Positions 5,606 to 33,385 of a stretch of DNA of 63,263 bases are shown piece by piece (the first letter of the stretch is position 1; the number at the start of each line of letters is the position of its first letter). This DNA is from Bacteriovorax stolpii (GTDB lineage: Bacteria; Bdellovibrionota; Bacteriovoracia; Bacteriovoracales; Bacteriovoracaceae). The notes beneath the pieces are model-generated. The model did no database searches. It worked only from the letters and a program-made list of their open reading frames with translations, and was not told the DNA's origin. The stretch is from NCBI GenBank assembly GCA_945905815.1, contig CAMDQH010000009.1, forward strand, positions 1-63,263, read 5' to 3'. The position numbers and the translations under genes are program-made.

Positions 5606-5700
5606 CTCTCCCCTAACACAACCTTGCGAGCTTCATAATTTTACTCAATTGACTTAGTGCAAGCGTATACTCACGCGCTTCAACATGATAATTCCCCCGC

Positions 5701-7053: not shown

Positions 7054-7132
7054 ATTTTAATTAATTCTATGGGTTACATTTTCTGACTAAGTTTATATCC
7101 TTTTAGAAATATTTTTCTATAAAGGAGCATTC

Positions 7133-8506: not shown

Positions 8507-8518
8507 ATAAAATAAAAA

Positions 8519-8543
8519 GGCCCTCGTAAGAGGGCTTTTTTTA
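8519..8543 (+). terminator. Rho-independent terminator (bidirectional)
   Basis: GCCCTC (8520-8525), loop GTAA and GAGGGC (8530-8535) are followed by seven T residues. An A-rich tract on the other side lets it also serve the minus-strand gene ending at 8545. Confidence 0.9.
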
Positions 8544-8544
8544 T

Positions 8545-10002
8545 TTATTCTTTGCAGTCTGCGAACTCATCTTCTGGATGCGGAAGTTTGATGTCATCGT
8601 TTTCACCACACCCGAGGCTCTTAACTACGGCTTCAGCTTTGGCCACAGCATCCCCCGGCGGGCAAGATTTATCAAAATCAAAATTAGAATTCAGTTCATT
8701 GATCTTCAGGTTCAAGTCTCCAAGCCCACTCTGAAGCACAGTACTAACGTCGGCCCCATCAGCATCTAGCCATTTAATGCTTGGATCTTCATCTTTCTCT
8801 TTTGAACCATCATCAGCGTTAGTGATTTCTACCATGCATGAAGTTGGAACAGGCAGAGAAACAATACAAGCATCACCGGACGAAGCGACTTCGTCTTTCA
8901 CCGGCATAGTGTCCATTTGATGAAACTCGCCATTTTTAGCAACCTTATCCAATAAATTCGGATCATCACACTTACAGTCCTTTACAATGTAGTAAGATGG
9001 AGATTTTAAACCGCCCATAGTCAAATGCGAAGATTGGTCTTTTGAATCATGGAGTAACCCTTGAACCGCAAAATATTTATCCTCGTAATGGTTTTGAGGA
9101 TTTCTTAAAACATCGTAGGCAACCTTAGGGTCAGCAACTTTATCAGAATCTTTGGCAAATTTCTTCTGATAAGAACCAGTCATATAATCGCGGAGATATG
9201 AACTCTTTGGTGTAAAGAGCTTAGGAAACTGCGCCGCTGATTCCGGACTGAGCTTCAAATTATTTACGATAATATCTTTGCAGGGGCCAGAGGAGACTGA
9301 GATACCGTTAAATTCATCTGTTAACAGATCGATGTTAATATCACTGCTCTTTACTTTTTTCTTTCCACCATCAGACCCAACCATTGCTTTTAAACCCGCT
9401 TGAAAGCTCTTTAATCCATCAACGCATTTTTGCACGGCCGGCTTTAATACACCCTTCGTCATGTAAGTCGTATTTGTAATTGGACTAATATCGAAAGACA
9501 AAAGTTCTTCTGATAGCGTATTGATTTGCTCTGGAGAAAGCGGATATTTTTTGAGTGAATCAAAATGAGGTCTGCTACCAGATTTCATGCTTTGATTATC
9601 CCTTGGCTTATATGCAGGGTGAAGTTGACCATCTAGCCCAGTTTCAAGAATTAGACCTGAATGACATTGCCCACATCCAATATGAAAATCTTTCTGCCCT
9701 TCAAATTCCACTGATAGTTTTCCATCTACAGTATTATGCCCTACGGGTTTACACGCCTTGGCGAGACGTCCTGCGTCCCGGTTAAGCAAATTTTGGACAG
9801 CATTTTTAGCACTGAAACAGTTAAGCGGAGTAGAAGAGATTCCCCCAGAAGCAAGGCCAGGAAATTTGAAAGGCTGAGAAGTAAAATGAGAGTTTTTTCT
9901 CTTATGGCCATCAAAATAATCCGTCATTTCCTTGAAGAGTTTACCTTCCGACGATGTCGGAGTAGGCATTGGCCATAATCTTAGCGTGCCCACCAGCATC
10001 AA
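8545..10002 (-). pseudogene. C-terminal part of a frameshifted secreted protein with a CxxCH haem motif
   Basis: This is the largest piece of a gene split over three frames (8545-10404). The 485-codon frame makes sense from about residue 18 onward (SEGKLFKEMTDYF); its first residues are the alternative-frame reading of the preceding fragment. It contains GCGQCHSG, a c-type haem attachment motif, and scattered cysteines such as CKCDD and CPPGD. It has no own ribosome site near a plausible start. It shares a frame with the N-terminal fragment but not the middle one, so one deletion and one insertion compensate. I do not know its function; redox or structural export roles are possible. Treat as a broken gene unless resequencing restores it. 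Confidence 0.6.
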
Positions 10003-10162
10003 CTTTAGTGTAAAAATCGACTTTGTCGGCCGATGACATTTCGTTGATTCGTGCAGAAAAGTATTTTAAAGCATCCCGAGTTTGAGAATTTTTACAATTA
10101 TCAATGACGGCGGGATCAGTGATTCCATTATTCTTTAGAAGTTTATCGATGGTTTGATCCAA
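9941..10162 (-). pseudogene. Middle fragment of the frameshifted secreted gene
   Basis: An open frame with natural protein composition (TIDKLLKNNG, ALKYFSARINEMSS) links the N- and C-terminal pieces. It has no start codon with a ribosome site; upstream its frame stays open (KNLTLKDDASLD) back to the N-terminal fragment's stop, showing that it is a continuation. It ends at TAA 9941-9943. A perfect 6-bp inverted repeat with a 3-base loop (TCCGAC/GTCGGA, 9947-9961) lies just before that stop, where the reading must move +1 to enter the C-terminal frame. Confidence 0.55.
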
Positions 10163-13948: not shown

Positions 13949-15187
13949 TCATGTTTTTTTAAATTTGAGGATGAAACAAGTCTGGGAGAGATCCGGTGAT
14001 AGTTCCAAATCACCACCCATTCCATTCATAAGTGCCTTTGAAATACTCAGGCCAAGCCCGGTGCCCACCCCAATTTCTTTAGTTGTATAAAAAGGCTGAA
14101 ATAATTTTTTTCTTACGTCGACTGAGATCCCAGCGCCTGAATCTCTGATTTTGAGAACAACTTGACCTTCAAATTCTTCATTTGAAAGCCAAATTCTCCT
14201 GTTATCTTCAGCATTTTTGAGAAGCTCATCAATACTATTGCCTAAAAGATTAATCAGAACTTGTGATAATTGAGAAATGTTTACTCGTACTAACGTATCT
14301 TGATTTATGCCTGAAAAATCTAGTTCAATTAATGAATTACGAACTCTTTCAGCACATAAATTAAGAACATCTTCGATGGCCAAAAACAAATTCGTCGCAA
14401 CAATTTCTTCTTTCGCCCCGGACTTTGAAATTCTCCGCATTGATGTCACGACTCTAGAAATGCGATGGGCCATATCATTTATTTTGGATAGAGTTTTATT
14501 AACTTCGACATCTGTGGCAGACCCATCAGTTAATTGAGACAATATCATTTCACAGCGACCAATAATCACGGCCAGGGGATTATTAATTTCATGAGCAATA
14601 CCCGCTGCGATTTCACCAAGTGAAGCAAGACGACTTGAACTAATCAAGCTTTGCTCTTGGGTCTTAAGTCGTTCATCTTTTCTCTTCAATTCAGTGATAT
14701 CTTCAAAAATTAAAATTGTACCGGTTTGGTTATTAAGTTTGGTAAAACGGCACAGAAATGTCCTAAGGGAATTATCCTCTCCACATGTCCACTCGAAAAC
14801 TCCAGCTCTGTCTTTAAATGCAAATAAATCCTCTATTTTAAACGGCAGCAAGGAAACATCGAATGCCCTATTTTTAAAAGTAGGCTTCAAATCATTATCC
14901 AAAACGACAATTTGCTCATTCATACTATCTAAAATTGTATTTAAGAATATTCTCTGCGATGCGGTTCTTCTAAATTGCATATAAAGAACGAAAATAAAAA
15001 CGGGCACTGAAACGGAGCTAAATAAATAAATCGATTGTGATTTATAAACATCAGATGCATTTACGAAATTCCAAGGAAGTCCTAATTCTGCAAGGTCAAT
15101 TGCTATAAATAAAAGAGGTACAGTTTGTCCTGCGGTCATTGAGAGGAATATCGATAATAATAAATTGGACAACTTATTCTTGGTCAT
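13949..15187 (-). CDS. Membrane sensor histidine kinase (PAS-HisKA-HATPase)
   Basis: Transmits a signal by autophosphorylation to the response regulator encoded just upstream. Two hydrophobic segments near the N-terminus (LSNLLLSIFLSMTAG... and SIYLFSSVSVPVFIFVLYM) flank a short periplasmic loop. A PAS-like domain follows (ILDSMNEQIVVLDNDL to LIFEDITELKRK). The HisKA box AHEINNPLA has the phospho-acceptor His199. The ATPase domain shows the N box NLLGNSIDELLKN, G1 RDSGAGIS and G2 GVGTGLGLSISKAL. I chose the only early ATG; an upstream TTG at 15280 would overlap the regulator by about 26 bases. The sensed cue is unknown. Confidence 0.85.
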   Translation of the reverse strand: MTKNKLSNLLLSIFLSMTAGQTVPLLFIAIDLAELGLPWNFVNASDVYKSQSIYLFSSVSVPVFIFVLYMQFRRTASQRIFLNTILDSMNEQIVVLDNDLKPTFKNRAFDVSLLPFKIEDLFAFKDRAGVFEWTCGEDNSLRTFLCRFTKLNNQTGTILIFEDITELKRKDERLKTQEQSLISSSRLASLGEIAAGIAHEINNPLAVIIGRCEMILSQLTDGSATDVEVNKTLSKINDMAHRISRVVTSMRRISKSGAKEEIVATNLFLAIEDVLNLCAERVRNSLIELDFSGINQDTLVRVNISQLSQVLINLLGNSIDELLKNAEDNRRIWLSNEEFEGQVVLKIRDSGAGISVDVRKKLFQPFYTTKEIGVGTGLGLSISKALMNGMGGDLELSPDLSQTCFILKFKKT

Positions 15188-15254
15188 TTTATAATTTGAA
15201 AACCTTTTAACTGTAAATTTGTTTGTATTAATTGATTTCAAAGTTTTCAAAATT

Positions 15255-16046
15255 TTACTTTTTGGATTTTTCTTCTGCAAGAAGTCTAGTCATATCTTCT
15301 AGTCTTGACGTTACCGTTTCCAGCAATATTTTGAACCACTTTGGCTGAGTAGAAATCACAGCTTCAAGCTTTTCTTTCTGTATACTGATAAGGACACAAT
15401 CGGTAACTGCCAAAACTGAAGCTGTTCGAACTTTACCCACTAGAAATCCCATCTCACCAACCATCTCTCCCGCTCCAACACTTGAAACGGTTACGCTAGT
15501 TCCATTTTTTGCTTTTCTAACAATCTTAAGCGCCCCTTCTTTTACAAAAAAAAGATCAGAACTTTCATCACCCTCTTTAATGACAACTTCGCCGGCCTTA
15601 AAATTAACCATACCAGAAGTACCGGTCACAGATTTTTTTTCCAGTAATCGATTCACTTTATCTAAAACATCCTTAGGGCTAAATGGCTTGTTTAAAACTT
15701 CAATATTTCCTAAGAGTTCAATTTCAACTCGAAAGTCATCAAGAGAAGCACTTATAAGAACAATGGGGATAGGTTTGTAACTAGCACCCAACCTCATCTT
15801 TTTCTGTGCCTCATCTGTTTGAATTAGTTGGACGAATTTTATTCCGTCTTTTTTTGGCATCCTAATATCTGTCATAATAAGATCAAACGTTTCATTGGAA
15901 TACTTAAAAGCGCCATCAACTCCGTCGATAGCAGTCGTTACTTTAAAACCTGCAGTTGTAAGGATGTCAGAAAGCATCTCCAGAAAATCGCTGTCATCAT
16001 CTACAATCAAAATTTTGTGTTTAATTTTTTTTCCTGAGTCTTCCAT
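15255..16046 (-). CDS. Response regulator with REC and cyclic-nucleotide-binding domains
   Basis: The 263-residue protein starts with a receiver domain: acidic pocket ILIVDDDSD (residues 13-20), phospho-acceptor Asp60 in MTDIRMP, and the conserved Lys in LNKPFS. This is followed by a cNMP-binding domain (GEVVIKEGDESSDLFFVKEG to CVLISIQKEKLEAVI) with the beta-roll pattern GEMVGEMGFLVGKVRTASV. No DNA-binding helix-turn-helix is seen after it, unlike CRP, and it ends with a short helix (LEDMTRLLAEEKSKK). It therefore probably acts through protein contacts or by sensing cAMP/cGMP/c-di-GMP together with phosphorylation. It precedes its likely kinase in one operon. Confidence 0.85.
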   Translation of the reverse strand: MEDSGKKIKHKILIVDDDSDFLEMLSDILTTAGFKVTTAIDGVDGAFKYSNETFDLIMTDIRMPKKDGIKFVQLIQTDEAQKKMRLGASYKPIPIVLISASLDDFRVEIELLGNIEVLNKPFSPKDVLDKVNRLLEKKSVTGTSGMVNFKAGEVVIKEGDESSDLFFVKEGALKIVRKAKNGTSVTVSSVGAGEMVGEMGFLVGKVRTASVLAVTDCVLISIQKEKLEAVISTQPKWFKILLETVTSRLEDMTRLLAEEKSKK

Positions 16047-20461: not shown

Positions 20462-20538
20462 GGCGACGTAGCTCAGTTGGTGAGAGCACAGCATTCATAA
20501 CGCTGGGGTCGGCAGTTCAACTCTGCCCGTCGCTACCA
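20462..20538 (+). tRNA. tRNA-Met (anticodon CAU), elongator type
   Basis: A 77-base cloverleaf with encoded CCA. The acceptor stem GGCGACG pairs with CGTCGCT (first pair G-U). D-arm is AGCTCAGTTGGTGAGAGC; anticodon loop TTCATAA; T-arm GGCAG-TTCAACT-CTGCC. The variable loop GGGGTC and the GTAGCTCAG/GCTACCA ends resemble elongator tRNA-Met rather than tRNA-Ile2. Pairing 31-39 in the anticodon stem is an A-C mismatch. An initiator identity is unlikely because the 1-72 pair is G-U and the three G-C pairs before the loop are missing. Confidence 0.93.
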
Positions 20539-20892: not shown

Positions 20893-23800
20893 GTGATTAA
20901 AGTAAAAAGCCGTCGCAAGCTTCAGCCCTACAATCCGAACCTGGGATTTATTGGAAGCGTGAAAGTCGATGTTGCCAACTACATCTTCTCTTCAAAGCGC
21001 AAGCGTGCCCCTTATCAACACTCAAAGGCACTGGTAAAAAACCTCCTTACACGTGATGTGTCTGTGCATTTGAAAGAATCACAAGGTCTAACACGATTTA
21101 TTCGTAAACGTGATCTGACATTTCAAAAATCAGACGCTAATGGGAATTACAAAATTTTCACAGTTCCTTGTACAACAACCATCGTGCCGATGCAGAAATC
21201 AATTTTTAATACGATTGAAAAAGCAGCACAAACTTTGATCGTGTCTTTACGCTGCGTAATCCAGGATATCTATGGCTCAAAAACAATAAAAGACTCTGGT
21301 TTTGTAAAATCACTACCAATTGAGATCAGAAGCATTTTTATTGATGCCATAAAAGAATCTCCAAACTACTTCCTTCAACTCCATAATCCATCAATGAAGA
21401 AATACCCTTTCTTTGATAACGTTGGTCTTGATTTGGTGTTAATTGAAGATTATTTTGAACAATCAAAAAATTTCGATACTCTTTTGAAGGCAAAAAAAAC
21501 GGATAAGCTTCCTGAACTTCCTTTCAGAATCCTTGAGCTTAATGCTGGTGCCCCATCAGGTGCTTCAAATAATATGAACGTACTCGAAGGTCATTATGAA
21601 CAGAATCCGGAAGTTCTTGATTCTCTCGGCCGCTTAATGCCAAATGATCACTTTCAAGTCCTTGCTGAAACATATAAAACTCTGGGTGAAGACTGGACCG
21701 GTATTAAAGACGGAATCCAGGTTATTCTTCCTCCTGGAGGAATGAACGGTGCTGCTCCAGAAATTCACAACCTTGCTGCATATTCTGGTTTAGTTTACGC
21801 CGATCCAGTCCAGTTATTCTCAGATGAGAAAGGTTATATTCGTCTTCGTACTATTAACGGTTCTAACCCAATTATTACGGCGATTTATTCCCGCATCAAT
21901 GCAGACTCAGCACTATTTGATGTTGATAAGGGCGTGATCCTTCGTGATGCGGATACAAATGAACCACTTTATCTTCGTGACTCATTCAAACTTGGTGAAG
22001 ATGGAGAGGCCCCTTTAGTCTTAGATGTTAAAGGTAATCCAATTCCACTTCAGTCTGATTATGCCGTTCCAGGACTTTTGGAAGCAGTTCTTACGAAAAA
22101 AATCTATATGGGTGGTCTAAACCGAATTCTTGATAACAAGATTATTCTTGCGGCCCTAACAACTTATGCACCTATTTATTTTGCAGGAAAGATTAAAGAA
22201 TTAGGTCTTAACAACAACGGACCAAAGATAACTCCTCCAGAAACACTTCCACCTAAGATGGAATCAGTAAAAATTATTGAAGCTAATCCGGAAGAATGGG
22301 TTGTAAAAGCGCCAAATCTTTCTGGTGGCTCAGGCATTCACATCATGAAGTCACTTTCTAAGCAATCAAGGAAAGAAGTTCTTGATATGATTCGTAAAAA
22401 GCCAGATCATTTCGCTTATCAAAAGCTTGTAAACATAGCTCGAATTCCAGTAGCCATGAAAGATAAAAAAGAAGGCATTCGCTTTGCAAATTTAGCTGCT
22501 GATATTCGTCTATGGGTTTTCTACGGCGGCGGAAATAAAGCACTTCCAAAAATGACTCATAATGCTTTAGTTCGATATGCCCCTGAAGAAAAAGGCCCCA
22601 TGAGCTCAATCGTAAATACCTCAAAAGGTGGCGGTTATGCTCCATTCGTTGTAGTTGACGACATTGGAACTTCAGAATCAGTTAGCGCGATGGAATTTAT
22701 AAAAACAAAAGCACCAATACCTCTACAAACTCACCTACCAATGTTTGTAGCGGCCCAACTTATTCAAGTGTCACGACTTGCAGTCGAAATGAATACTCAT
22801 CTTAAAAATGAAACTGCGGACAGCTATACAACATTAGGTCTGGCACTTTCTTTGAAAACTCAGTGCCGTGAAGTATTGAGCTTTATGAATCCGAGAGCAA
22901 TTGAACCCATTTATAAGATCATTGATTTATTGGAGGCAAAACAAGAATCAAAGGCCACGGCAAAATTCTTTGATTTGGTTAACCTAAATCAGCTTACTCT
23001 TGTTACAAGCCTTCAAAAGCTTGAGTCAAAAAACAAACTTCCCAATGGTTTTCGTGAGCGCTTAGATGAACTCTTGGTCATGGACCAGGACATTGTGTAC
23101 CAAAACTATACTGTTGAAAACCGTAACCATGATCGAAAAATCTTGAAAAACCTAAAGGCAATTTTAGTTGAAAGAGCTAAAGGCAATAAAGTGCTCTTAA
23201 AAGAATACAATGGCCTTATCAAAATCTTAAATTCAAGCATTGAAGCCTCATTTCCAAGAGAGATACTTAAAGGTAAAGCAGCGCAAAACCTACTAAAATT
23301 AGTTGAAAGTTTCATGAATATGGTTAAGGACCGCTTACAAAACTCTGAAAAAGCGATTGAGTTTGCAAAGTTATTCTCAACTGATTTGGTTCATCCTGAA
23401 TTGAAATTTGATACCTTTGGATTAAAGCAAGAATCGCTTTGTAAAAAAAGTGGCTTTCTAACTGCTTCACAAAAAGAATTTGCAACTGGTGAGTTGTTAA
23501 CAGAATCTGATTACATATCACCGATGATAAAAGAGGCCCGTGTTGAATGGATCAAAATCGAAGCCGAAGCTAAAAAACAAACATTGGCTAAACGCGTTCA
23601 GTTTTTGGCAAAAAAACGTGCGGCACATTTTGAAAAATATCCATTAATTGCGCGCATGAATCAGATCATGAAATCTTCAAACGTTGGTGTTTCAGATCTT
23701 ATCGAATTAATGCCTGCTATGCCTTATGCAAAATTCAACCTTGAGATGTTTGCTAAGAAACAAGGCCTAACACTTGAAGATATCTTCACCAATGAATTAA

Positions 23801-24654
23801 CCCCAAACAAAATCTCAATTTTGACAACTGAACAGATTGGCGAAAATAAATTATCCGCCCAAGATCATGCTGGTGAATGTTTTGCCAAAAAACGTAAATC
23901 TCATGGACTCTTTTCTGATTCAGATATTTTCATATGGATCCGAAAGGAATTAGATCCTCTCACTCAGATCTATACAGCTGGACATGAAGTTATTCACTTT
24001 CATCAAATTGAAGAAACAACAAAATCAGAAGCAAAAGCATTATCAGATGGTGCTATAGCTCAGGCCTACTTTCTTAACTTTTACGGGAATTTTCTTGGGG
24101 TATCGGCCGCATCTCTTGAAGGATTGTCTGTAGACATATCAGTTGAGCGCCAACCTCTTTATGGACTTGCAGATCGTATTGTTCCTTATTTTTATACTCC
24201 ACTATTAACCGAGATTCGATCGGGTATAAATAGTTCTCGTGAAAAATACGAAAAAGTTTTAAATAAATACGGTTCTCTTTTTAGTTACATGATGCCTAAT
24301 TCTAACCAGGTTAAAGTTAAGGCATTGCAGGAAATTATTCCGGCCTTAGAAAATGCCAAGAACATTCTTTTCGCAAAAGAAATTGGTCTTGAAATCAAAA
24401 TGGACGAAATTTGCTCTGCAATCCCAAGTGCAAATAAAGCTCAGATTAAAACATTTGGTCCTAAAATTATGCGCGCTGTAAAAAAAGCATCACCAGATTA
24501 TGAAGCACTTACAATTATTGGGAATCATCAGTTCTATGGCGTTAGTTTCGCCAGGAAACTGGATGTCTCTAAGTCGATTACGCTTAAACCCATTTTAAGT
24601 ACGATTTCACTTGGAAACAGCTACAACCAAACTCAACAACAGCAACAGCAGTAG
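20893..24654 (+). CDS. Circularly permuted ATP-grasp protein with C-terminal HExxH metallopeptidase-like domain
   Basis: Large cytoplasmic protein (1253 residues, no signal peptide). Its first half has the blocks of circularly permuted ATP-grasp (DUF404/DUF407) enzymes: ILELNAGAPSGASNN, VVKAPNLSGGSGIHIMKS, ADIRLWVFYGG and ALVRYAP followed by VNTSKGGGY. These enzymes form amide or peptide bonds using ATP in characterised relatives. The C-terminal part has TAGHEVIHFHQIEE with HExxH at 1031-1035 and further acidic residues, suggesting a zincin-like domain. The protein ends in a Gln run (QTQQQQQQ). The start is GTG 20893, with AGAGAGG 5 bases before it. It heads a three-gene unit with a membrane protein and an outer-membrane-like protein. 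Substrate is unknown. Confidence 0.8.
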   Translation: MIKVKSRRKLQPYNPNLGFIGSVKVDVANYIFSSKRKRAPYQHSKALVKNLLTRDVSVHLKESQGLTRFIRKRDLTFQKSDANGNYKIFTVPCTTTIVPMQKSIFNTIEKAAQTLIVSLRCVIQDIYGSKTIKDSGFVKSLPIEIRSIFIDAIKESPNYFLQLHNPSMKKYPFFDNVGLDLVLIEDYFEQSKNFDTLLKAKKTDKLPELPFRILELNAGAPSGASNNMNVLEGHYEQNPEVLDSLGRLMPNDHFQVLAETYKTLGEDWTGIKDGIQVILPPGGMNGAAPEIHNLAAYSGLVYADPVQLFSDEKGYIRLRTINGSNPIITAIYSRINADSALFDVDKGVILRDADTNEPLYLRDSFKLGEDGEAPLVLDVKGNPIPLQSDYAVPGLLEAVLTKKIYMGGLNRILDNKIILAALTTYAPIYFAGKIKELGLNNNGPKITPPETLPPKMESVKIIEANPEEWVVKAPNLSGGSGIHIMKSLSKQSRKEVLDMIRKKPDHFAYQKLVNIARIPVAMKDKKEGIRFANLAADIRLWVFYGGGNKALPKMTHNALVRYAPEEKGPMSSIVNTSKGGGYAPFVVVDDIGTSESVSAMEFIKTKAPIPLQTHLPMFVAAQLIQVSRLAVEMNTHLKNETADSYTTLGLALSLKTQCREVLSFMNPRAIEPIYKIIDLLEAKQESKATAKFFDLVNLNQLTLVTSLQKLESKNKLPNGFRERLDELLVMDQDIVYQNYTVENRNHDRKILKNLKAILVERAKGNKVLLKEYNGLIKILNSSIEASFPREILKGKAAQNLLKLVESFMNMVKDRLQNSEKAIEFAKLFSTDLVHPELKFDTFGLKQESLCKKSGFLTASQKEFATGELLTESDYISPMIKEARVEWIKIEAEAKKQTLAKRVQFLAKKRAAHFEKYPLIARMNQIMKSSNVGVSDLIELMPAMPYAKFNLEMFAKKQGLTLEDIFTNELTPNKISILTTEQIGENKLSAQDHAGECFAKKRKSHGLFSDSDIFIWIRKELDPLTQIYTAGHEVIHFHQIEETTKSEAKALSDGAIAQAYFLNFYGNFLGVSAASLEGLSVDISVERQPLYGLADRIVPYFYTPLLTEIRSGINSSREKYEKVLNKYGSLFSYMMPNSNQVKVKALQEIIPALENAKNILFAKEIGLEIKMDEICSAIPSANKAQIKTFGPKIMRAVKKASPDYEALTIIGNHQFYGVSFARKLDVSKSITLKPILSTISLGNSYNQTQQQQQQ

Positions 24655-24665
24655 GATGTTTTTAG

Positions 24666-26918
24666 ATGAGAACAGAAATATTAACCAGTGAAATTCCAAA
24701 GCTGTTTCCATTCTTGGAAACTCTCCTCCAGGATGGCGGGAAGAAGCTTTTCGCAATCTTGGGTGAAGTAACACGTTCATCTAATTTTGATGGACGCAGT
24801 GGTTATCATTTCCATGAAGAAAATCTATTTGCTTCAATTGAATTTGGAGTGTTATTTGGTGGATCTGGTTTTGTTATCCGACGATACAAGAAAACAAAAG
24901 AAGAAGAATTTGAAAGTTTTGATCACTTCGATAAAAAGGGAAATTTTACTTTTACTTCGAACCAAAAAACTCTTGATCCTCTGTATGTAGATTCGATGAA
25001 CATGGATGCAACATGCCCCATTCTTAATCACTTATACAACTTTTTATCACTTGAATATAAGCGGGCAGCTGAAGGAAAATCTTGGGCAACAGATCAAGTT
25101 CATATTATAGAGCTTTTTTTACGCCAAATTTTCAAATCCAAGATTGTGCAACTCTCTATTAAAAGTGGAATCAACGATCCTGCAATTTCTGGCATCTACG
25201 AAAAAATCCAAAAAGCTGAAATGGATCCAGTTCTGACATGGGAAGAGCGCCAGCTTGTATTTGATTCGTACCGCGAAACGCTAGATGCAGTTATTGCAAC
25301 AAAAGTTCGTGCTCATAAACTTTCAAGTTTTAGCTTTTCATTACAAAAGATGAGAAAGAATTCTTCAAATTTCAGAGGGCGTGTTACTGCTCGACCAATT
25401 AGCAATGCCAAAGGTCTATTATTTCGCTATACGATTGGAAAAGTTCTTTGGTTTATCCATACAGTGAAAGATAACCTCGGGTACTCAGTAGCGCTGGCCG
25501 TTTATGGCCCCTTTACTTATTATTTCATCACAATGCCAATGAACCCACATGCTATGCAGGCAGTTGGTCGTTTGCGTGGAGTTTATTTAGACACTAGGGC
25601 CGAAATTTCTGAATTAGTTGATAATGTTGAAGGACTTACGAACAAATCAACGACAACACTTGTTCAATTACCTGTTCCAGCAGAAAAAACGTTGGCCATA
25701 GTTGAAGACACTATTTCAACTACAAATGCTGCACCAGAAACAAGCTCAACAGCATCTGCACCAGCTGTGGACCCAAAACTGCTCGCCAATATTATCTATG
25801 TTTCATCAACTACGATGGGCCCAGTCCAAGATATATCAGTTGATCTTGGTGATGGTGCAAATGAAAAGTATAAACCGACTTTTTTAAACATGCTTCTTAC
25901 AACTGATATCCCAAAAGTTGATCGCCAACTTTGGAATGATCGCATGAGTAACTTTAAGCAAATGCAAATTGCTTACGAAGAGAATATTGAGTACGCCTCT
26001 CGTATGGGTCGTCTTGAACAACTCGAGACTCAATACAATTTCCCGATGCAAGTTGAAAGCACTTGGGAAGAGCTAGAACGCTACAATGGCTTGATCTTTC
26101 GCATGCGTGAGGAGAATCCAAATCTCTCACCTAAGATGAAGCAATATCTTTCAAACGAAATAAACCGCACTCAGCAGTTAGAACTTTACCTTTGGGACCG
26201 CATGGGTCGCTTTGTCCTAGATCAAATCTACGTTATGCTTGACCAGGATAATGAACAAAAACGTAGTGACTATTATGTCGGCCGTTCTTTTGTATTCATG
26301 CAAGAAATGACGAATATGCTTTCATGGCGCTACAAGAACTTTAAAAAGCCTGAGGGGTATGAGCGAATCGAAAAACTTGCAAATTTTTATGCTAAGAACC
26401 GTAAAGAATTTGGCTCTGTTACAAAAAACTTAACGGCCAACTCAGATCTTTATAAGCAGAAAGATGTTCTTAACACTAAAGAATTCCGTTCTTACATGAA
26501 GCGCCAGTGGGAAATTCTTTATCTTCAAAACTCTAAAGCTGAAGAAGCTTCAAACAATGGACTGAATATGTATATCTGGTCGGTGCGAAATACCGTCTGG
26601 GTTTTACAATCACTTTATTCTGCTAAGCGAGAGGAGCTCGGACTCTTGATTAAGCGAGATATTTCTGGTCAGATGTTTTCGCCAGGTGATCTGCTCAGTC
26701 GATCAAAGATATCTATGATGTATGAAACTCACATTCACAACTTAACGTTAGAATATGTAGGTATTAGAGAGGAAATCATGAAGAGACTTGGAAAAGATAT
26801 CGAGTCTACTCAGAGGATGATGATACTCGAAAACCTGAAAGAGTTTTTGTCTGATCGAGAAAAGTTGGATGGCCTAAGTGTAGCTACCTCACAAAGAACA
26901 GCGGGAACGACTTTATGA
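24666..26918 (+). CDS. Large single-span membrane protein of unknown function
   Basis: I do not recognise a family for this 750-residue protein. No N-terminal signal peptide is seen. About 260 soluble residues precede one clear hydrophobic span (LGYSVALAVYGPFTYYFITM, residues 271-290). A Ser/Thr/Pro/Ala-rich linker (near 345-375) follows, then about 370 charged, helix-rich residues with abundant Tyr/Trp/Arg (YNGLIFRMREENP, YLWDRMGRFVLDQIYVML). The likely topology is one domain on each side of the inner membrane. It starts 11 bases after the ATP-grasp gene and overlaps the next by ATGA, implying a stoichiometric partnership with both. Confidence 0.7.
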   Translation: MRTEILTSEIPKLFPFLETLLQDGGKKLFAILGEVTRSSNFDGRSGYHFHEENLFASIEFGVLFGGSGFVIRRYKKTKEEEFESFDHFDKKGNFTFTSNQKTLDPLYVDSMNMDATCPILNHLYNFLSLEYKRAAEGKSWATDQVHIIELFLRQIFKSKIVQLSIKSGINDPAISGIYEKIQKAEMDPVLTWEERQLVFDSYRETLDAVIATKVRAHKLSSFSFSLQKMRKNSSNFRGRVTARPISNAKGLLFRYTIGKVLWFIHTVKDNLGYSVALAVYGPFTYYFITMPMNPHAMQAVGRLRGVYLDTRAEISELVDNVEGLTNKSTTTLVQLPVPAEKTLAIVEDTISTTNAAPETSSTASAPAVDPKLLANIIYVSSTTMGPVQDISVDLGDGANEKYKPTFLNMLLTTDIPKVDRQLWNDRMSNFKQMQIAYEENIEYASRMGRLEQLETQYNFPMQVESTWEELERYNGLIFRMREENPNLSPKMKQYLSNEINRTQQLELYLWDRMGRFVLDQIYVMLDQDNEQKRSDYYVGRSFVFMQEMTNMLSWRYKNFKKPEGYERIEKLANFYAKNRKEFGSVTKNLTANSDLYKQKDVLNTKEFRSYMKRQWEILYLQNSKAEEASNNGLNMYIWSVRNTVWVLQSLYSAKREELGLLIKRDISGQMFSPGDLLSRSKISMMYETHIHNLTLEYVGIREEIMKRLGKDIESTQRMMILENLKEFLSDREKLDGLSVATSQRTAGTTL

Positions 26919-27859
26919 AATTGAAGAAAATCAATGTCTCCTCTCAATTACTGATTCTTCTTCTTGCCGGTCTTGTTATGGGACTAATGTTACAGATGGC
27001 ACAAGCTCAAGTTCTTCAAACTCAAGCACCTGGTCAAACTCTGGGCGAGACTTTGATGAAGAACACTTCATTAGGATATTACCATCAATTTCTAGGTCCT
27101 ACTGTCGGTGGGCCAAACGGCGAAACATATAATGTCTTCGTCGAAGGACAATCCCCATATCAAAGTTTTCATGCCGCAAATATTAAATATACCTTCAATT
27201 CAGATTGGGCAATGGGCGTAAGTTTAGCTGCCACGACGGCCTATGGTGACTCTGTTACTAATAAGAAAACTGGCTACGAAACAAATAATTTGAGAGACGA
27301 ATTCTATAATGCTCGTGCTTTTGTAAGTTTGCCTTCTTATACAACGTCGGTTGGTACACTATTTACGACAATTTCCTATGAAGCACCTACATCAGTCGTT
27401 TCCCAAAGAGATAATATGCAATATGGTGGAGTGCTTGCGCAAAGCTTTGCTATCAAGTTGCCAAGTATGAAATGGACAGCTGGTTTCTCATGGCAATATT
27501 ACCGTATGGTTTATAAGGATAACGTTCAATCTCGTCCGGCAAACTATTATTTCCCTGGTTCTGTACCTGAGAAAATTGCCCGTCAAACAACAATTGTAAG
27601 CGGTGGTCCATACATGACATATCGCCATAATGATAAATGGGGAATGAATTCAGCGATGATATTTGACTGGGATCAAAGAGGAAATCAAACAGGAACAGCG
27701 AGCTTCAATAATAACTTACCCGATCGTGCCCGATTAGGTATTTCATATTTCCCTTCTAAGATTAAGCAAATCGCCAACGTGGGTATTTTCACTCAGGGAC
27801 TTGTTAAATACACTGCCGCAACCCATGCCGTTGGTGCAGAATTCGCTCTGAGATTTTAA
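26915..27859 (+). CDS. Probable outer-membrane beta-barrel protein
   Basis: The 314-residue product begins with a positively charged N-terminus and a hydrophobic signal (LLILLLAGLVMGLMLQMAQAQ). The remainder is rich in alternating polar/aromatic strands and Asn/Gly/Tyr turns (SFHAANIKYTFNSDWAMGVSL, KWTAGFSWQYYRMVYKDN). It ends in a terminal Phe (VGAEFALRF), a classic outer-membrane insertion signal. No named family is recognised. The ATG overlaps the previous stop by four bases. As the third member of the unit it may form the outer-membrane end of a trans-envelope complex; that role is inferred from order and overlap only. Confidence 0.7.
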   Translation: MKLKKINVSSQLLILLLAGLVMGLMLQMAQAQVLQTQAPGQTLGETLMKNTSLGYYHQFLGPTVGGPNGETYNVFVEGQSPYQSFHAANIKYTFNSDWAMGVSLAATTAYGDSVTNKKTGYETNNLRDEFYNARAFVSLPSYTTSVGTLFTTISYEAPTSVVSQRDNMQYGGVLAQSFAIKLPSMKWTAGFSWQYYRMVYKDNVQSRPANYYFPGSVPEKIARQTTIVSGGPYMTYRHNDKWGMNSAMIFDWDQRGNQTGTASFNNNLPDRARLGISYFPSKIKQIANVGIFTQGLVKYTAATHAVGAEFALRF

Positions 27860-28036: not shown

Positions 28037-29593
28037 TTAGTTTAAATACTGAGATTTCGTTTTACCAGGGCCGGTATAATTAAACATTAAGGTACCTGGT
28101 AGATCCTCACGCAGTAGCTCTAATTGCGACTTATGTCTTCCCTTGCGATCAGCATGACCCATCTGGGTATCAGGAACGCCCAGGCATCCATCAGTGGCGT
28201 CAATTCTGTCTCTTGCCGAGGCGGCCGAGCTTACCTCTTGAGTAAGATCAAACAGATCTTCCTTGGTGTTTTTAAAATCAATTTCCATAAAGTTCTTATA
28301 AATATCGATTCCTGGAATTCGTTTTTTCTCAGAACTGATAACCCAAGTTTTGTCCACGTATTCTTGATTTGGTGTTCTCCAGCCATGAACAACTAAGTCC
28401 CTTCTAGCCATCGACTTGTTATTTACATCGATTCCACTGAGAGTCACATTATTTAAATAAGTTCCACCGGTGCTTGCGGCCTTCGCAATGTAAAAGCCTT
28501 CAGATGAAAGCAAAGATCCTGCAGCATTTGAAGTCTGAGGCGAGCTGCCTAATTTATCAATTCCTGCTTCCTGAGATCGATCTTTTCCACCACCGTGAGC
28601 AACCCAAGTATTATGCAGAACTTTTTTCGACTTAATATCAATGACAAACATTCTTCTCTCATTAGAGGGACGAGAATAATCGACGATTGTAATAACATTG
28701 GGATTCGTAATTTCATTTTTGTGGCCAGTTTTCAAAACGGCTTCACGGCCAGCAAGAGCTTCTTCAAATGCTTTTTGACTGACGAAAGGACATTGTGAGT
28801 ATCCATCAGCATCTTGAGTGAAAATTTTCCTTTTCAACAATTCTTCTTTTATTACTTCTGCTTTGTAACTTGGTTTAGTCTTGGAAAGTTTATGCATTTC
28901 CTGAAGCATAACTCCCCGTAAGCGTGCCATTGCTTCGAATCGACCTGCGCTGTTATCTTCAAATGTTTTTAGCAGTCCTTCACCATATTTAATTGTTTCG
29001 GAACTAATTCCGTAATCTTTCGCAAATTCTTTAAAGCGTAAGATTTTAATTTCTCTGGTGAGATAGGCATCCGTTTTAACAATAAATCTCATATCTTCAA
29101 GGAGCTCCATGAAAAGAATAGGACTTAGCTTCTCTTGAGGGTCATTCAAAACTTTATCCGGTTCACAAAAAGCAGAAGAGAGAAAATCTTTTTTGAGTTC
29201 ATCATAGGTGCTGTTGGCGCTCTCATAAACTGCCTGAATCGTTTTACGTGAAACATCTTCGACATTTTGCTCAATAACTAATGGATCCTCACAAACTTCT
29301 TCAATTTTAGGCAAAGGCGAAATAATCAGTGGAATTAAATCAGGCAGCTCATCTTGAACTTCATTAATGGCCAGGGCCGGCGCTCGAGCAATGGCCTTAT
29401 CAAAGACGGTAGATTTAGCAAGTAAATTTCGTTCAGAATGTGTGAGTAATTTCGGATTTTTTGACTCAAAATCAAGCAGAAAACTCTTGAGCTCATCAAC
29501 CCATTCCGTTCGTATTTTAAGCCCCTGATCAACGGAAGCCTGAATCTGCAGAGCGATCAAGAAAATGAACAAAACAAAAAAGTGTTTAAGCAT
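28037..29593 (-). CDS. Murein L,D-transpeptidase catalytic-domain protein (YkuD_2 family)
   Basis: Secreted protein of 518 residues. The start at ATG 29593 gives a proper signal peptide (MLKHFFVLFIFLIALQIQAS) and follows AAGGA; a longer frame upstream is not needed. The N-terminal 300 residues are helical and uncharacterised. The C-terminal domain matches YkuD_2: ITIVDYSRPSNERRMFVIDI, WVAHGGG, LVVHGW with His403, and TDGCLGVPD with the probable nucleophile Cys470. L,D-transpeptidases cross-link or modify peptidoglycan stems or attach proteins to them. A remodelling role in the periplasm is expected, but the exact reaction is unknown. Confidence 0.85.
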   Translation of the reverse strand: MLKHFFVLFIFLIALQIQASVDQGLKIRTEWVDELKSFLLDFESKNPKLLTHSERNLLAKSTVFDKAIARAPALAINEVQDELPDLIPLIISPLPKIEEVCEDPLVIEQNVEDVSRKTIQAVYESANSTYDELKKDFLSSAFCEPDKVLNDPQEKLSPILFMELLEDMRFIVKTDAYLTREIKILRFKEFAKDYGISSETIKYGEGLLKTFEDNSAGRFEAMARLRGVMLQEMHKLSKTKPSYKAEVIKEELLKRKIFTQDADGYSQCPFVSQKAFEEALAGREAVLKTGHKNEITNPNVITIVDYSRPSNERRMFVIDIKSKKVLHNTWVAHGGGKDRSQEAGIDKLGSSPQTSNAAGSLLSSEGFYIAKAASTGGTYLNNVTLSGIDVNNKSMARRDLVVHGWRTPNQEYVDKTWVISSEKKRIPGIDIYKNFMEIDFKNTKEDLFDLTQEVSSAASARDRIDATDGCLGVPDTQMGHADRKGRHKSQLELLREDLPGTLMFNYTGPGKTKSQYLN

Positions 29594-29772
29594 AATTTCC
29601 TTATTTGCACTCATCGGCTTATACTTGACAAAACTGGACCAGCGCTGCAAGTGCCTGGATTCACAGACTTCTGCATCGTGTAAGTTATTCATAATACGCA
29701 AATTTCAGTGTATTTAACGCGGAGCACGAGATACATCTAGTCTACTTATTTTTACCTATTCAGGAGGCCCCT

Positions 29773-31443
29773 TTGAAACGATATTTAGCATTGATCACGC
29801 TTGCGCTACTGACTACACCAGTGTTCGCACAAGTTGCAGATGATGATGAACCTTGCGATCCAGCTGTTGAGCAGTGTGGAGATGATCTTAATTCTGAGGC
29901 CTACAAAAATATTTACCCTTTTGTACCAATGGCAACTAAAGATATTCAATTTCGAGTGAATCGTTTAACTGAGAATGAGAATTTTATTTGGGACATCAGA
30001 GAAATCAATAAACGTGGTCTGACTCGTGCTAACACCAAAGTTCAACCATGGGGTGGATCATTCTGGCCTCTCATCCAAGGGCAAGTTGCAAATACTTATC
30101 AAAATAAGAACTTCTCAATTCTTCACGGGGCATTTAACGGACTAGAAGTTACATCTTGGAAATACAATTATAATAAATTTCAAAAGCGTGAGGAGAAAGT
30201 TCTTCCTAAGATTTATGAACTAGACGAAAAAGATCTTGCTGAACTTGCTCCTTCTGAGAAATACGACATCCTTTTAGGAGACACTTCATTCGATTTAACA
30301 AAACGTGTGTGGACAAATGCAACTACTTGGGGTGCCAAGAAGAAATGGGGATATCTAAGTTCAATTGACCTTCCTGCTGGTTACCGAATTCCTAAAGCTT
30401 CAAGCTTCCTTGCTCTTTGGGAAGGGATTTGTCACGGATGGGCGGTAGCTGCTGGCCATTATGATCGTCCTGAAAAAACAGTTTGGGTGACTCTCCCAAA
30501 TAAAAAGAAAATGCCATTCTACCCTACTGACTTGAAAGCGCTTATTTCTCTGATGTGGGCAAACTCAACAGTCCAGGATTCAGTAATTAGTGAAGGTCTT
30601 CGTTGTAATCGTAAATCACCTAAAAAAGATGAACATGGACGTTTCATTGATACTCAACTGGATAAAGGTGACACGCATCTTCTTCCACGCTGTGCCGACG
30701 TACACCCTGCTGTCTATCACGCAAGTATCGTAAACATCCTCGGAATCGAGGGACGAAGCTTTGTTGTTGATAGACATGCTAAGGCATCAATTTCTAACCA
30801 GCCTGTATCTGGTTATGAATACACATATTTTAATCCTCGTTCTGGGAAGGAAGGAAGTCTTGAGACAACAACACTGTCTGTAGACAAATATACAGACGAT
30901 CCATTTAAAGCGGCCCGTAACGCTGACACCAAATTTATCGTTGGTGTAGCAATGACATTAAAATATATTGACTGGGAAGATCCAGTAAAACAAGAAACTA
31001 ATGGTCCGGCCGATGATAAATTGAATAAATTTTCTTTCAACTATGACCTTGAGTTAGATGAAAACTATAAAATCATTGGTGGTCAGTGGCGTGTAGATAA
31101 GGATGCAAGTGCACGAATATTTAAAAACAACACTGATCAGCCAGACTTTTTTTGGGTTGTTCCACGCGATTATAAAAAGTATTTCCAACCAATCGCTGGA
31201 TTACCAACTTGGGATTTTAGAAAATCCACTCTTCCACCTAAAGAGTTCATGGCCGCTGCCCATAATGCTCATAGTTTTGTTTACCAGGAAACACGTGAGT
31301 ACGGCTTTGATCACAAGTGTCCGGTGTTCCCACTCAAAGGTACTGAGGGTGAGATGAAGACTGTTAACTGTGAGTTTAAATACCCACGTCCTCAACCTTT
31401 AATTAACGTCATCAATAAACTGTTAGAAGAGTCTCGTAAATAA
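29773..31443 (+). CDS. Secreted transglutaminase-elicitor-like cysteine enzyme (first of two paralogues)
   Basis: The 556-residue precursor starts at TTG 29773, supported by a perfect AGGAGG five bases upstream and a signal peptide (MKRYLALITLALLTTPVFA). The core carries WEGICHGWAVAAG with Cys220, VYHASIVNILG with His316, and SFVVDRHA with Asp333. This Cys-His-Asp arrangement and the GICHGW block recall the GP42 transglutaminase-elicitor family; I rate the exact family as probable. Cysteines in CDPAVEQC near the mature N-terminus could form a disulfide. The enzyme would form isopeptide cross-links or hydrolyse glutamine amides outside the cytoplasm. It is followed at a 9-base gap by a paralogue. 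Confidence 0.65.
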   Translation: MKRYLALITLALLTTPVFAQVADDDEPCDPAVEQCGDDLNSEAYKNIYPFVPMATKDIQFRVNRLTENENFIWDIREINKRGLTRANTKVQPWGGSFWPLIQGQVANTYQNKNFSILHGAFNGLEVTSWKYNYNKFQKREEKVLPKIYELDEKDLAELAPSEKYDILLGDTSFDLTKRVWTNATTWGAKKKWGYLSSIDLPAGYRIPKASSFLALWEGICHGWAVAAGHYDRPEKTVWVTLPNKKKMPFYPTDLKALISLMWANSTVQDSVISEGLRCNRKSPKKDEHGRFIDTQLDKGDTHLLPRCADVHPAVYHASIVNILGIEGRSFVVDRHAKASISNQPVSGYEYTYFNPRSGKEGSLETTTLSVDKYTDDPFKAARNADTKFIVGVAMTLKYIDWEDPVKQETNGPADDKLNKFSFNYDLELDENYKIIGGQWRVDKDASARIFKNNTDQPDFFWVVPRDYKKYFQPIAGLPTWDFRKSTLPPKEFMAAAHNAHSFVYQETREYGFDHKCPVFPLKGTEGEMKTVNCEFKYPRPQPLINVINKLLEESRK

Positions 31444-31452
31444 GAGGATGAT

Positions 31453-32691
31453 ATGAAAAAGAGAACTCTATCATTAGTTTTATTATCGACGACTGCCTTT
31501 GCAAATATGCGCCCCATTCCTGAATATGAGCGGATCACTCCGCTCCTTCAAGGACAACGGGAAGTAACTAATCTGGTTGAAATCGAGAAACTCGGGCTTA
31601 ATTCAGGTACGACTGGTTTGGATTTGTGGTCAGGATCTTACTGGCCTCAGTATCAGGGCTCACTTGGTGTGCGCTATCGCGACTCTTCGTTTATTGCCCT
31701 CATGAAAGAACATGAACAATATGATAAGTTCAAAGAGCTTAGTGAAAAAAAACCTGTCTACACTTATAGCGGTAAAGAAAATTTGCTTTCTCCAGCTGAA
31801 AAATACGATTTAGTTGTGGGTGACGGTCTCATGTCCCTCACCAAGTATGCCTGGGAGCTTGGTGCAAAAAATGAGAATTTAGGAAAAGTTCCTACTTGGC
31901 GTGGGATTTGTGATGGATGGTCTTCTGCGGCACAGATGATGCCAAGACCAGCGAAGTCAGTGACACTTTTAACTCCACAAGGGACTCAGATTACGTTCTT
32001 TCCAGAGGATATTAAGGCCCTTGGATCCCTACTTTATGCACGCGCTCAGGACAATGTAATATTTCTTGGAAAACGTTGTTACCCGGTAGTGGGGATGTTT
32101 ACGGGAGGCTGTGATGCCACTAATCCGGCCACGCTACATAAGACCTTTGCCAATCGCGTAGGTATGTTAAAGAAATCTTTTAATGCCGATATTTCTACTA
32201 GTTCACAAGTTTGGAACTATCCAGTGAAGAGTTATAAGTTCACTTATTACCATGTGTTCAATGATGAAGAGTCATTAGATTTCAGAAAAGTATATGAAGT
32301 TTTTGAAAAGAAGCATCGCTTTATAAAGGCCAATCGTCGTCACGAAAGAACTTATGCCATTGTTGGTGTTAAGGCCGAAGTGGTCTATGCTAATATGAGA
32401 GAAGCAAACCTTCTTACTACTGATGGAATTGCTGCCGATCAAAATCTTACGAAAACATATCTCTATGACCTAGAGTTAGATCGTAATTTTACTATTCTTG
32501 GTGGTGAATGGTATAGTGGTGGCCCTGATTTTATCTGGGCACCAAATGATAAAACCTATCCGATTTCTGATGGTGAAGCGGGCGCAAAACCAATTACAGC
32601 TATTGAAATAACAAAAGCGGCGCAAATTTCTTCAAAAGTTGGTCAGCCGCTTTCTATTATCGTAGAAAAATTATTCGAACAATCTAAGTAA
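31453..32691 (+). CDS. Second secreted transglutaminase-elicitor-like paralogue
   Basis: This 412-residue protein is a shorter paralogue of the preceding gene product. It shares the order WSGSYWPQYQG, LSPAEKYDLVVGD, WRGICDGWSSAA (Cys153), PATLHKTFANRVG (His229), SFNADIS (Asp246) and YLYDLELDRNFTILGGEWY. A signal peptide (MKKRTLSLVLLSTTAFA) is present and GAGGATG precedes the ATG. The catalytic residues are kept, but the His after Cys in the first paralogue (ICHGW) is Asp here (ICDGW), so specificity may differ. The N-terminal extension and a C-terminal region of the first paralogue are shorter. It is almost certainly cotranscribed with it. Confidence 0.63.
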   Translation: MKKRTLSLVLLSTTAFANMRPIPEYERITPLLQGQREVTNLVEIEKLGLNSGTTGLDLWSGSYWPQYQGSLGVRYRDSSFIALMKEHEQYDKFKELSEKKPVYTYSGKENLLSPAEKYDLVVGDGLMSLTKYAWELGAKNENLGKVPTWRGICDGWSSAAQMMPRPAKSVTLLTPQGTQITFFPEDIKALGSLLYARAQDNVIFLGKRCYPVVGMFTGGCDATNPATLHKTFANRVGMLKKSFNADISTSSQVWNYPVKSYKFTYYHVFNDEESLDFRKVYEVFEKKHRFIKANRRHERTYAIVGVKAEVVYANMREANLLTTDGIAADQNLTKTYLYDLELDRNFTILGGEWYSGGPDFIWAPNDKTYPISDGEAGAKPITAIEITKAAQISSKVGQPLSIIVEKLFEQSK

Positions 32692-32707: not shown

Positions 32708-33385
32708 CTAGTGAAGCTCCTCGCCTTTTGCAGCTCGCTCTGCCATTTCTCTAACAATATATCCGATCGCATAGGGAGCAGAATCGTGTTCTGCTGCTGA
32801 CTTATGATCAAACCCAATTTTATGTGTCCATTCATGTGCAAAGTTTCCGGCCACATCGCTAGGCTTGAAACTTTTAAAGAATTTCCAGTTGATATTGATG
32901 GTATTGATGTCGCCATTAGTCCAACCAATAACCTTTGAGTACCGTTTGTTGTAAAGTGAAAGGTAGTAATTCATTTCACCAGGAGTATTTTGCTGAAGAG
33001 TCTCTCTGCCATCCATAAAAGTGGCATAAATCTGTGTATTAGTTAAACCCTTATTAGAAGCAAATTCTGTCTTACCTTGAGTGTTTACAAAATTCAAAAC
33101 TCTACTTTTAAACTCTTCAGAGTTAACAACTTTTTCAAGTACAGAAAAGGCCTGCTCAACCTTTTCCAAGCTTTGAGCATCAAACCCCTTCACTTCCATG
33201 CCCTTAACCGCAAGATACCCGGCATTCACTGAATAGGGTTGAATAAATCTGGCATCAGATGCTTTTAACATCTTAGGGGCCACCGTAAGAGCACTCGCAT
33301 GCTCATGTTCGTTATGATTAATTTTAGGTGAATTTATGAAAGAGGCGCAAAGTAGTAACGATAGTGAAAAAATCCATTTTTTCAT
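32708..33385 (-). CDS. Secreted metzincin-like zinc metallopeptidase
   Basis: The 225-residue precursor has a signal peptide (MKKWIFSLSLLLCASFINS) and, in its C-terminal third, AHEWTHKIGFDH. This fits the metzincin consensus HExxHxxGxxH at residues 184-194 (three His ligands and catalytic Glu). A Met-turn is not obvious in the short C-terminus, so subfamily is uncertain. A His-rich stretch (NHNEHEHA) directly follows the signal and could bind metal. It is convergent with the transglutaminase-like pair, with only 16 bases between stops, and divergent from the pyroglutamyl-peptidase-like gene. Extracytoplasmic protein degradation is the likely role. Confidence 0.75.
   Translation of the reverse strand: MKKWIFSLSLLLCASFINSPKINHNEHEHASALTVAPKMLKASDARFIQPYSVNAGYLAVKGMEVKGFDAQSLEKVEQAFSVLEKVVNSEEFKSRVLNFVNTQGKTEFASNKGLTNTQIYATFMDGRETLQQNTPGEMNYYLSLYNKRYSKVIGWTNGDINTININWKFFKSFKPSDVAGNFAHEWTHKIGFDHKSAAEHDSAPYAIGYIVREMAERAAKGEELH

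Follow-up and report, generated by a model that had tools for sequence, protein, structure and literature searches.

Two described systems come closest to the locus analysed here. The Anbu operon encodes an ATP-grasp protein, an alpha-E protein, a transglutaminase-like protein and Anbu itself; the roles proposed for this operon were experimentally unconfirmed as of 2017 (PMC6376114). In Pseudomonas aeruginosa, the rlo operon (RloA, RloB and RloC) combines a cytosolic ATP-grasp enzyme with a peptidase and with an inner-membrane protein that has a domain in the periplasm, and its mutants are affected in osmotic tolerance, biofilm formation and cell shape (PMC12239564). The window that we analysed, a 63,263-nucleotide stretch of DNA from Bacteriovorax stolpii, carries three adjacent genes, p1, p2 and p3, which resemble both systems in outline.

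As in the Anbu operon, an ATP-grasp amide-ligase fold is combined with a transglutaminase-fold partner. However, while the peptidase partner in that operon is the proteasome-like Anbu (PMC6376114), in our unit this part would fall to an HExxH domain within the same polypeptide as the ligase. Beyond the Anbu components, the unit has p2, probably an inner-membrane protein, and p3, which is exported and barrel-like, and the alpha-E partner (PF04168) was absent from the six genomes with the unit that were examined. As in rlo, an ATP-grasp enzyme is linked with a (here probable) inner-membrane protein and a (here putative) peptidase. The earlier note on this DNA knew of no described operon that pairs a circularly permuted ATP-grasp enzyme with a large inner-membrane protein and an outer-membrane barrel; of this, the pairing of an ATP-grasp with an inner-membrane protein is already known from rlo (PMC12239564). 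The rlo operon has a RimK-like ATP-grasp, a secreted aspartic peptidase and an inactive transglutaminase with 7 TM helices, and the text covered describes no outer-membrane partner. In contrast to that transglutaminase, p2 matches no Pfam family and shows a single candidate span, and no Pfam relation was found between p2 or p3 and the rlo proteins. Thus, since the outline is alike but alpha-E and the RloB features are missing, the unit is a variant of the ATP-grasp/transglutaminase/peptidase theme and not a member of the Anbu or rlo systems. Our literature search found no paper combining circularly permuted ATP-grasp with Bdellovibrio.

The three open reading frames are all intact and run head to tail on the plus strand (Table 1). 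The best start for p1 is the GTG at 20893, preceded by gagagg, and its stop is at 24654. The ORF coordinates confirm the tight packing described previously, with 11 bases between p1 and p2, an ATGA overlap between p2 and p3, and a shared strand. A tRNA-Met gene lies 5' of p1 (20462-20538), and no sigma-70-like site was found between the two; the single upstream promoter of the earlier note is therefore a putative one.

Table 1. Features of the p1-p2-p3 locus and of its 3' neighbours (window positions).
Feature	Position	Strand	Description
p1	20893..24654	+	1253 aa; ~1-600 circularly permuted ATP-grasp (predicted), ~615-950 helical, ~960-1250 HExxH domain, tail SYNQTQQQQQQ
p1 HExxH motif (H1031-H1035)	23983..23997	+	invariant among aligned homologues
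p1 C-terminal tail codons (SYNQTQQQQQQ)	24619..24651	+	Y-[NH]-x-x-(x)-Q-Q ending, 46/46 complete homologues
p2	24666..26918	+	750 aa; alpha/beta N-domain 1-265, candidate transmembrane segment 271-289, variable linker ~305-415, helical C-domain 416-735
p2 candidate transmembrane segment (residues 271-289)	25476..25532	+	inside most conserved p2 block (YGPFTYYFITMPMNPHAM)
p3	26915..27859	+	314-aa exported protein; signal peptide, C-terminal F; probable outer-membrane beta-barrel
TGase_elicitor protein, secreted	29773..31443	+	Cys220, His316 conserved; recurrent neighbour of p1-p2-p3
second TGase_elicitor protein, secreted	31453..32691	+	associated gene 3' of p1-p2-p3

The earlier note had proposed that the three genes form one system, a claim that would suffer if they rarely co-occurred in relatives or if the third gene were a known unrelated porin. 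Conserved co-occurrence was the test set in that note. Among 129 Bacteriovoracales genomes (the order is an inferred assignment), p2 was present in 43, and p1, either full-length or split between contigs, in exactly the same 43. None of the 129 carried a full-length p1 without p2, and five further genomes had distant ATP-grasp relatives alone. Strong p3 matches were obtained in 40 of the 43; in two of the exceptions (G077 and G127) the contig ends beyond p2, while the third (G063) has room yet no recognisable p3. Across the phylum, p2 occurs in 58/369 genomes, from three families. A scan of genome contigs with two short peptide patterns, whose misses elsewhere are not proof of absence, gave 53 loci, all in metagenome-assembled genomes. 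By name these are mostly Bacteriovoracaceae, Halobacteriovoraceae, Bdellovibrionales or Oligoflexia; a few stand under other names (such as 'Nitrosovibrio' and 'Nonlabens') and are apparently mislabelled.

Nearly every locus has a tight p1-p2 junction, with the two genes 6-44 bases apart or overlapping slightly, and p1, p2 and p3 remain together while their flanking genes differ between clades. Moreover, in 8 of the 35 loci holding all three genes, p2 and p3 run divergently from p1, a glutaminase gene frequently lying in the interval, and these eight divergent loci cluster on the midpoint-rooted p1 tree. Nothing speaks more strongly for a functional unit than this linkage, which has survived changed neighbourhoods and strand rearrangement. 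That three unrelated genes were simply packed together by genome compaction would explain the general gene density of the window and nothing beyond it; set against the strict co-occurrence and the linkage kept amid differing neighbourhoods and rearranged strands, the odds of this reading are vanishingly small, and we consider it refuted by the distribution. In support of the one-system claim, the strict co-occurrence and the linkage kept in the divergent clade indicate that p1-p2-p3 is a real conserved unit, far beyond chance, and that p3 is no chance porin.

The assignment of p1 as a circularly permuted ATP-grasp protein was borne out. It matched the Pfam families CP_ATPgrasp_2 (6e-17) and CP_ATPgrasp_1 (2e-8), both above the cut-off, with scores for PF14403 and PF04174 of 62.1 bits (cut-off 32) and 33.9 bits (cut-off 23.1). 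Lys472, Gly478, Gly479, Gly481, Asp537, Arg539 and Asn575 are invariant in the alignment of p1 homologues (A1). The only solved relative found by sequence is the CP-ATP-grasp protein 3n6x, a putative glutathionylspermidine synthase (E = 7e-6), to which the p1 motifs align in both blocks (Lys472, the Gly-rich loop, Asp537-Arg539 and Asn575-Ser577-GGG). We take these aligned residues to be the nucleotide/metal-binding motifs of the ATP-grasp fold. The key motifs of this half are intact, and ligase activity is predicted. Note that the match is confined to the ATP-grasp half of p1, and 3n6x has no counterpart of the HExxH domain or the Gln tail.

In the remainder of p1, H1031, E1032 and H1035 show no variation in the aligned homologues, Glu1046 is on the same predicted helix, and Glu1147 and Glu1153 are conserved candidates for the third zinc ligand. 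The domain matched DUF6782 ('putative metallopeptidase') weakly, with a score below the cut-off. The C-terminal 647 residues, spanning the helical region and the HExxH domain, were modelled with a mean pLDDT of 90 and a pTM of 0.89, and a Foldseek search of this half against PDB folds (E <= 0.001) returned no match and no solved zincin. Thus, the proposed zincin has the invariant motif and a putative zinc site, but no structural match to a solved member. The alpha-E family was not found in the C-terminal part, and FliS-like helical matches to p1 were discarded as being at chance level.

No convincing Pfam family was found for p2, and no recognised ATPase or channel family; it had no sequence match in the PDB, and in a structure search against PDB folds no match had an E below 0.1. 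The AlphaFold2 model (mean pLDDT 80.5, pTM 0.53) shows an alpha/beta N-domain, a helical C-domain and a disordered linker, with low confidence for the helix at 271-289. These residues, which lie centrally, are the most hydrophobic stretch of the protein, with a mean hydropathy of 1.2 versus the usual cut-off of 1.6. The single-span membrane protein described in the earlier note has, therefore, a weaker span than stated, and such weak hydrophobicity would suit a soluble, cytosolic p2 that partners p1 and buries this block as a helix, p3 being a separate, co-regulated outer-membrane protein and no trans-envelope complex being formed. The much faster divergence of p3, the fastest-evolving of the three genes, relative to p1 and p2, and its lack in G063, would agree with this. 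However, the net charge is +4.5 on the N side of the candidate span and +0.8 on the C side, Cys residues fall from 0.63 per 100 aa in the N-domain to 0.018 in the C-domain, the low-complexity linker is Ala/Ser/Thr-rich and varies from 23 to 111 aa, and the linkage of p3 persists in the 40/43 genomes and through rearrangement. A soluble p2 is thus quite unlikely. Because of the charge bias, the near absence of Cys from the C-domain and the variable linker, an N-in/C-out topology is favoured, and p2 is probably an inner-membrane protein.

The third protein, p3, has a clear signal peptide (hydrophobic N-terminus at 8-26), and most of its homologues, like p3 in the window, end in an aromatic residue (F or Y). 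The window protein had no Pfam match, and the p3 profile gave no significant match in the PDB and only sub-threshold matches to outer-membrane families. A known porin was ruled out by these results. Genomes lacking the unit gave weak p3 matches (E about 1e-4 to 1e-10), which point to no more than a distant barrel superfamily. A test of hydrophobic alternation was mixed, with lag 4 and not lag 2 strongest, and we draw no support for a barrel from it. Consequently, the outer-membrane barrel proposed before is favoured by the signal peptide and the terminal aromatic residue but not by the alternation signal, and we regard it as probable.

Transglutaminase-partnered amide-ligase operons had previously been contrasted with this locus, yet several lineages have TGase_elicitor or glutaminase genes beside the unit. 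In the window, p3 is followed downstream by two TGase_elicitor genes whose products bear signal peptides. The family members from the loci keep Cys220 in 23/23 cases and His316 in 22/23. Such a gene is found within 5 kb of the unit in 22 of 48 loci, from three families, with the window as a further case, against genome totals of only about 4-18 copies. The median copy number is 8 in genomes with p1 and 1 in those without (Mann-Whitney P = 6e-14, kinship ignored), and it is high in 8/8 genera with p1 versus 5/40 without (Fisher P = 3e-6, kinship again ignored); a few genera without p1 carry many TGase_elicitor genes too. No transglutaminase gene was seen beside the unit in the marine clade (g10, g43, g36, g16 and g19). 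Protein-glutaminases (PF18626) flank p1 in several lineages. These glutaminases and the TGase_elicitor proteins (PF16683) are secreted, Gln-acting families; they are partners of the unit, not homologues, and are not constant neighbours. The transglutaminase-fold neighbours, together with a copy number that tracks p1, tie the unit to the ATP-grasp/transglutaminase/peptidase theme of Anbu and rlo.

Glutamine also marks the end of p1 itself. The terminal pattern given in Table 1 is extended by more Gln in some homologues, the preceding 20 residues vary, and the tail is disordered in the structure model. In pattern scans of the genomes examined, no protein besides p1 had a YNQxQQ end, the other hits being short ORFs without gene support, and QQQQ-stop sites were few and near the control level in most genomes scanned. 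A general sorting signal was rejected on these grounds. Two genomes (G019 and G025), which carry 16-17 TGase_elicitor genes, had 17 and 24 QQQQ-stop sites, putative C-termini, versus 0 and 13 with the reversed-pattern control.

Distant ATP-grasp proteins from genomes without the unit (L173-L176) have N-termini that, judged by eye, look like signal peptides or, in part, a lipoprotein signal. Apparently exported or lipoprotein members of the CP-ATP-grasp type that bear HExxH domains are encoded at 4601-7870 (minus strand) in L174, at 6626-10153 (plus) in L175 and at 5680-9182 (plus) in L173, where the two parts are divided between two ORFs. The HExxH-bearing proteins (in L173, the separate ORF) end in QQQ or QQQQ. 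An ATP-grasp enzyme apparently located outside the cytosol is unexpected. In L176 (3115-8306, minus), an apparently exported CP-ATP-grasp protein of 985 aa is followed by a TGase_elicitor gene on the same strand; judged by these predicted products, the pairing recurs without p2-p3.

The tails and these relatives bear on another reading, in which p2-p3 would be a dedicated export route for p1 or for a Gln-tailed partner, and secreted transglutaminases and glutaminases would crosslink or deamidate the tail outside, fixing p1 to the surface or delivering it into an ATP-supplying cell. Consistent with this, p1 lacks the signal peptide or lipoprotein signal that its distant relatives without p2-p3 apparently carry, the Gln-rich end is shared with the HExxH-bearing relatives, every complete p1 ends in a disordered QQ or longer, and Gln-acting secreted enzymes adjoin the unit. 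Against it, p2 belongs to no recognised family of ATPases or channels, little ATP is available beyond the cytosol except within prey or host, and we know of no precedent for the export of a folded 140-kDa enzyme through a p2-p3-like pair. We consider this reading rather unlikely.

Among the other genes nearby, some are of regulatory or cell-wall type. A histidine kinase gene and a response regulator gene, the latter encoding a cNMP-binding domain, lie at 13949-16046 of the window (minus strand); this pair is directly upstream of p1, and on its strand, in many related genomes, and in the marine clade the response regulator alone adjoins p1. They are possible regulators of the unit. A YkuD_2 L,D-transpeptidase gene (28037-29701, minus), convergent with p3, has the same place in several genomes of the genus. 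Finally, 32708-33385 (minus) encodes a protein of 225 aa, conserved near the unit in the genus, that probably has a signal peptide, contains an HEWTH (HExxH) motif and had no Pfam match.

Some of these genes would fit an envelope-stress or cell-wall maintenance module like rlo, with p1 modifying a cytosolic metabolite or peptide, p2 relaying this to the periplasm and p3 acting as a structural protein or as a porin for the uptake of peptide fragments. Across much of the genus, and also in the marine clade, the gene next to p1 on its upstream side is that of the response regulator, often accompanied by its kinase; the L,D-transpeptidase adjoins p3 in several genomes, and the effects seen in rlo mutants (PMC12239564) speak for this reading too. 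This explanation is nevertheless rather unlikely: neither the response regulator nor the L,D-transpeptidase is a constant neighbour, and rlo has an ATP-grasp of the RimK type and an inactive transglutaminase with 7 TM helices instead.

The reading that we prefer, with a probability of roughly 0.45, is that p1-p2-p3 constitute one conserved envelope-linked amide-ligase/peptidase system, in which cytosolic ligation and editing would be coupled to the envelope; this mechanism is likely in outline. In the cytosol, where ATP is, p1 would activate a carboxylate and form a peptide or isopeptide bond on a peptide or protein, and its HExxH domain would trim or edit the product. As a single-pass inner-membrane protein, p2 would dock p1 through its N-domain and reach the periplasm with its nearly Cys-free helical C-domain, and p3 would be its outer-membrane barrel partner. 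The secreted TGase_elicitor proteins and glutaminases would act outside the cytosol on Gln side chains of that substrate or a related one, and the Gln tail of p1 may be used by transglutaminases. The unit would then represent an envelope-connected variant of the ATP-grasp, transglutaminase and peptidase theme. Several results weigh against this reading: the candidate span of p2 is below the hydropathy cut-off and of low confidence in the model, a third zinc ligand was not identified, p2 and the C-terminal half of p1 match no solved fold, the marine clade has no adjacent transglutaminase gene, G063 has p1-p2 but no recognisable p3, and the copy-number correlation ignores kinship and is blurred by genera that have many TGase_elicitor genes but no p1. 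The unit may also serve the export or surface tethering suggested in the earlier note. A more specific proposal, which we hold to be a long shot, is that p1 writes and erases a C-terminal Gln tag, its own or a partner's: the ATP-grasp half would add to it, the HExxH domain would trim it, and the outside transglutaminases and glutaminases would read it and crosslink it to the envelope via p2-p3. If true, bacteria would have a surface-conjugation pathway unlike the sortase, Pup and RimK systems.

Operons of the ATP-grasp/transglutaminase/peptidase type have long been known, but an envelope-linked trio is undescribed, and one of its members, p2, is a large conserved protein matching no family or solved fold. 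The dedicated partner proteins of the unit would place this chemistry at the cell envelope. In addition, statistics that ignore kinship tie the unit to secreted enzymes of crosslinking type, a family found throughout the genome, and the conserved Gln tail provides a concrete substrate hypothesis.
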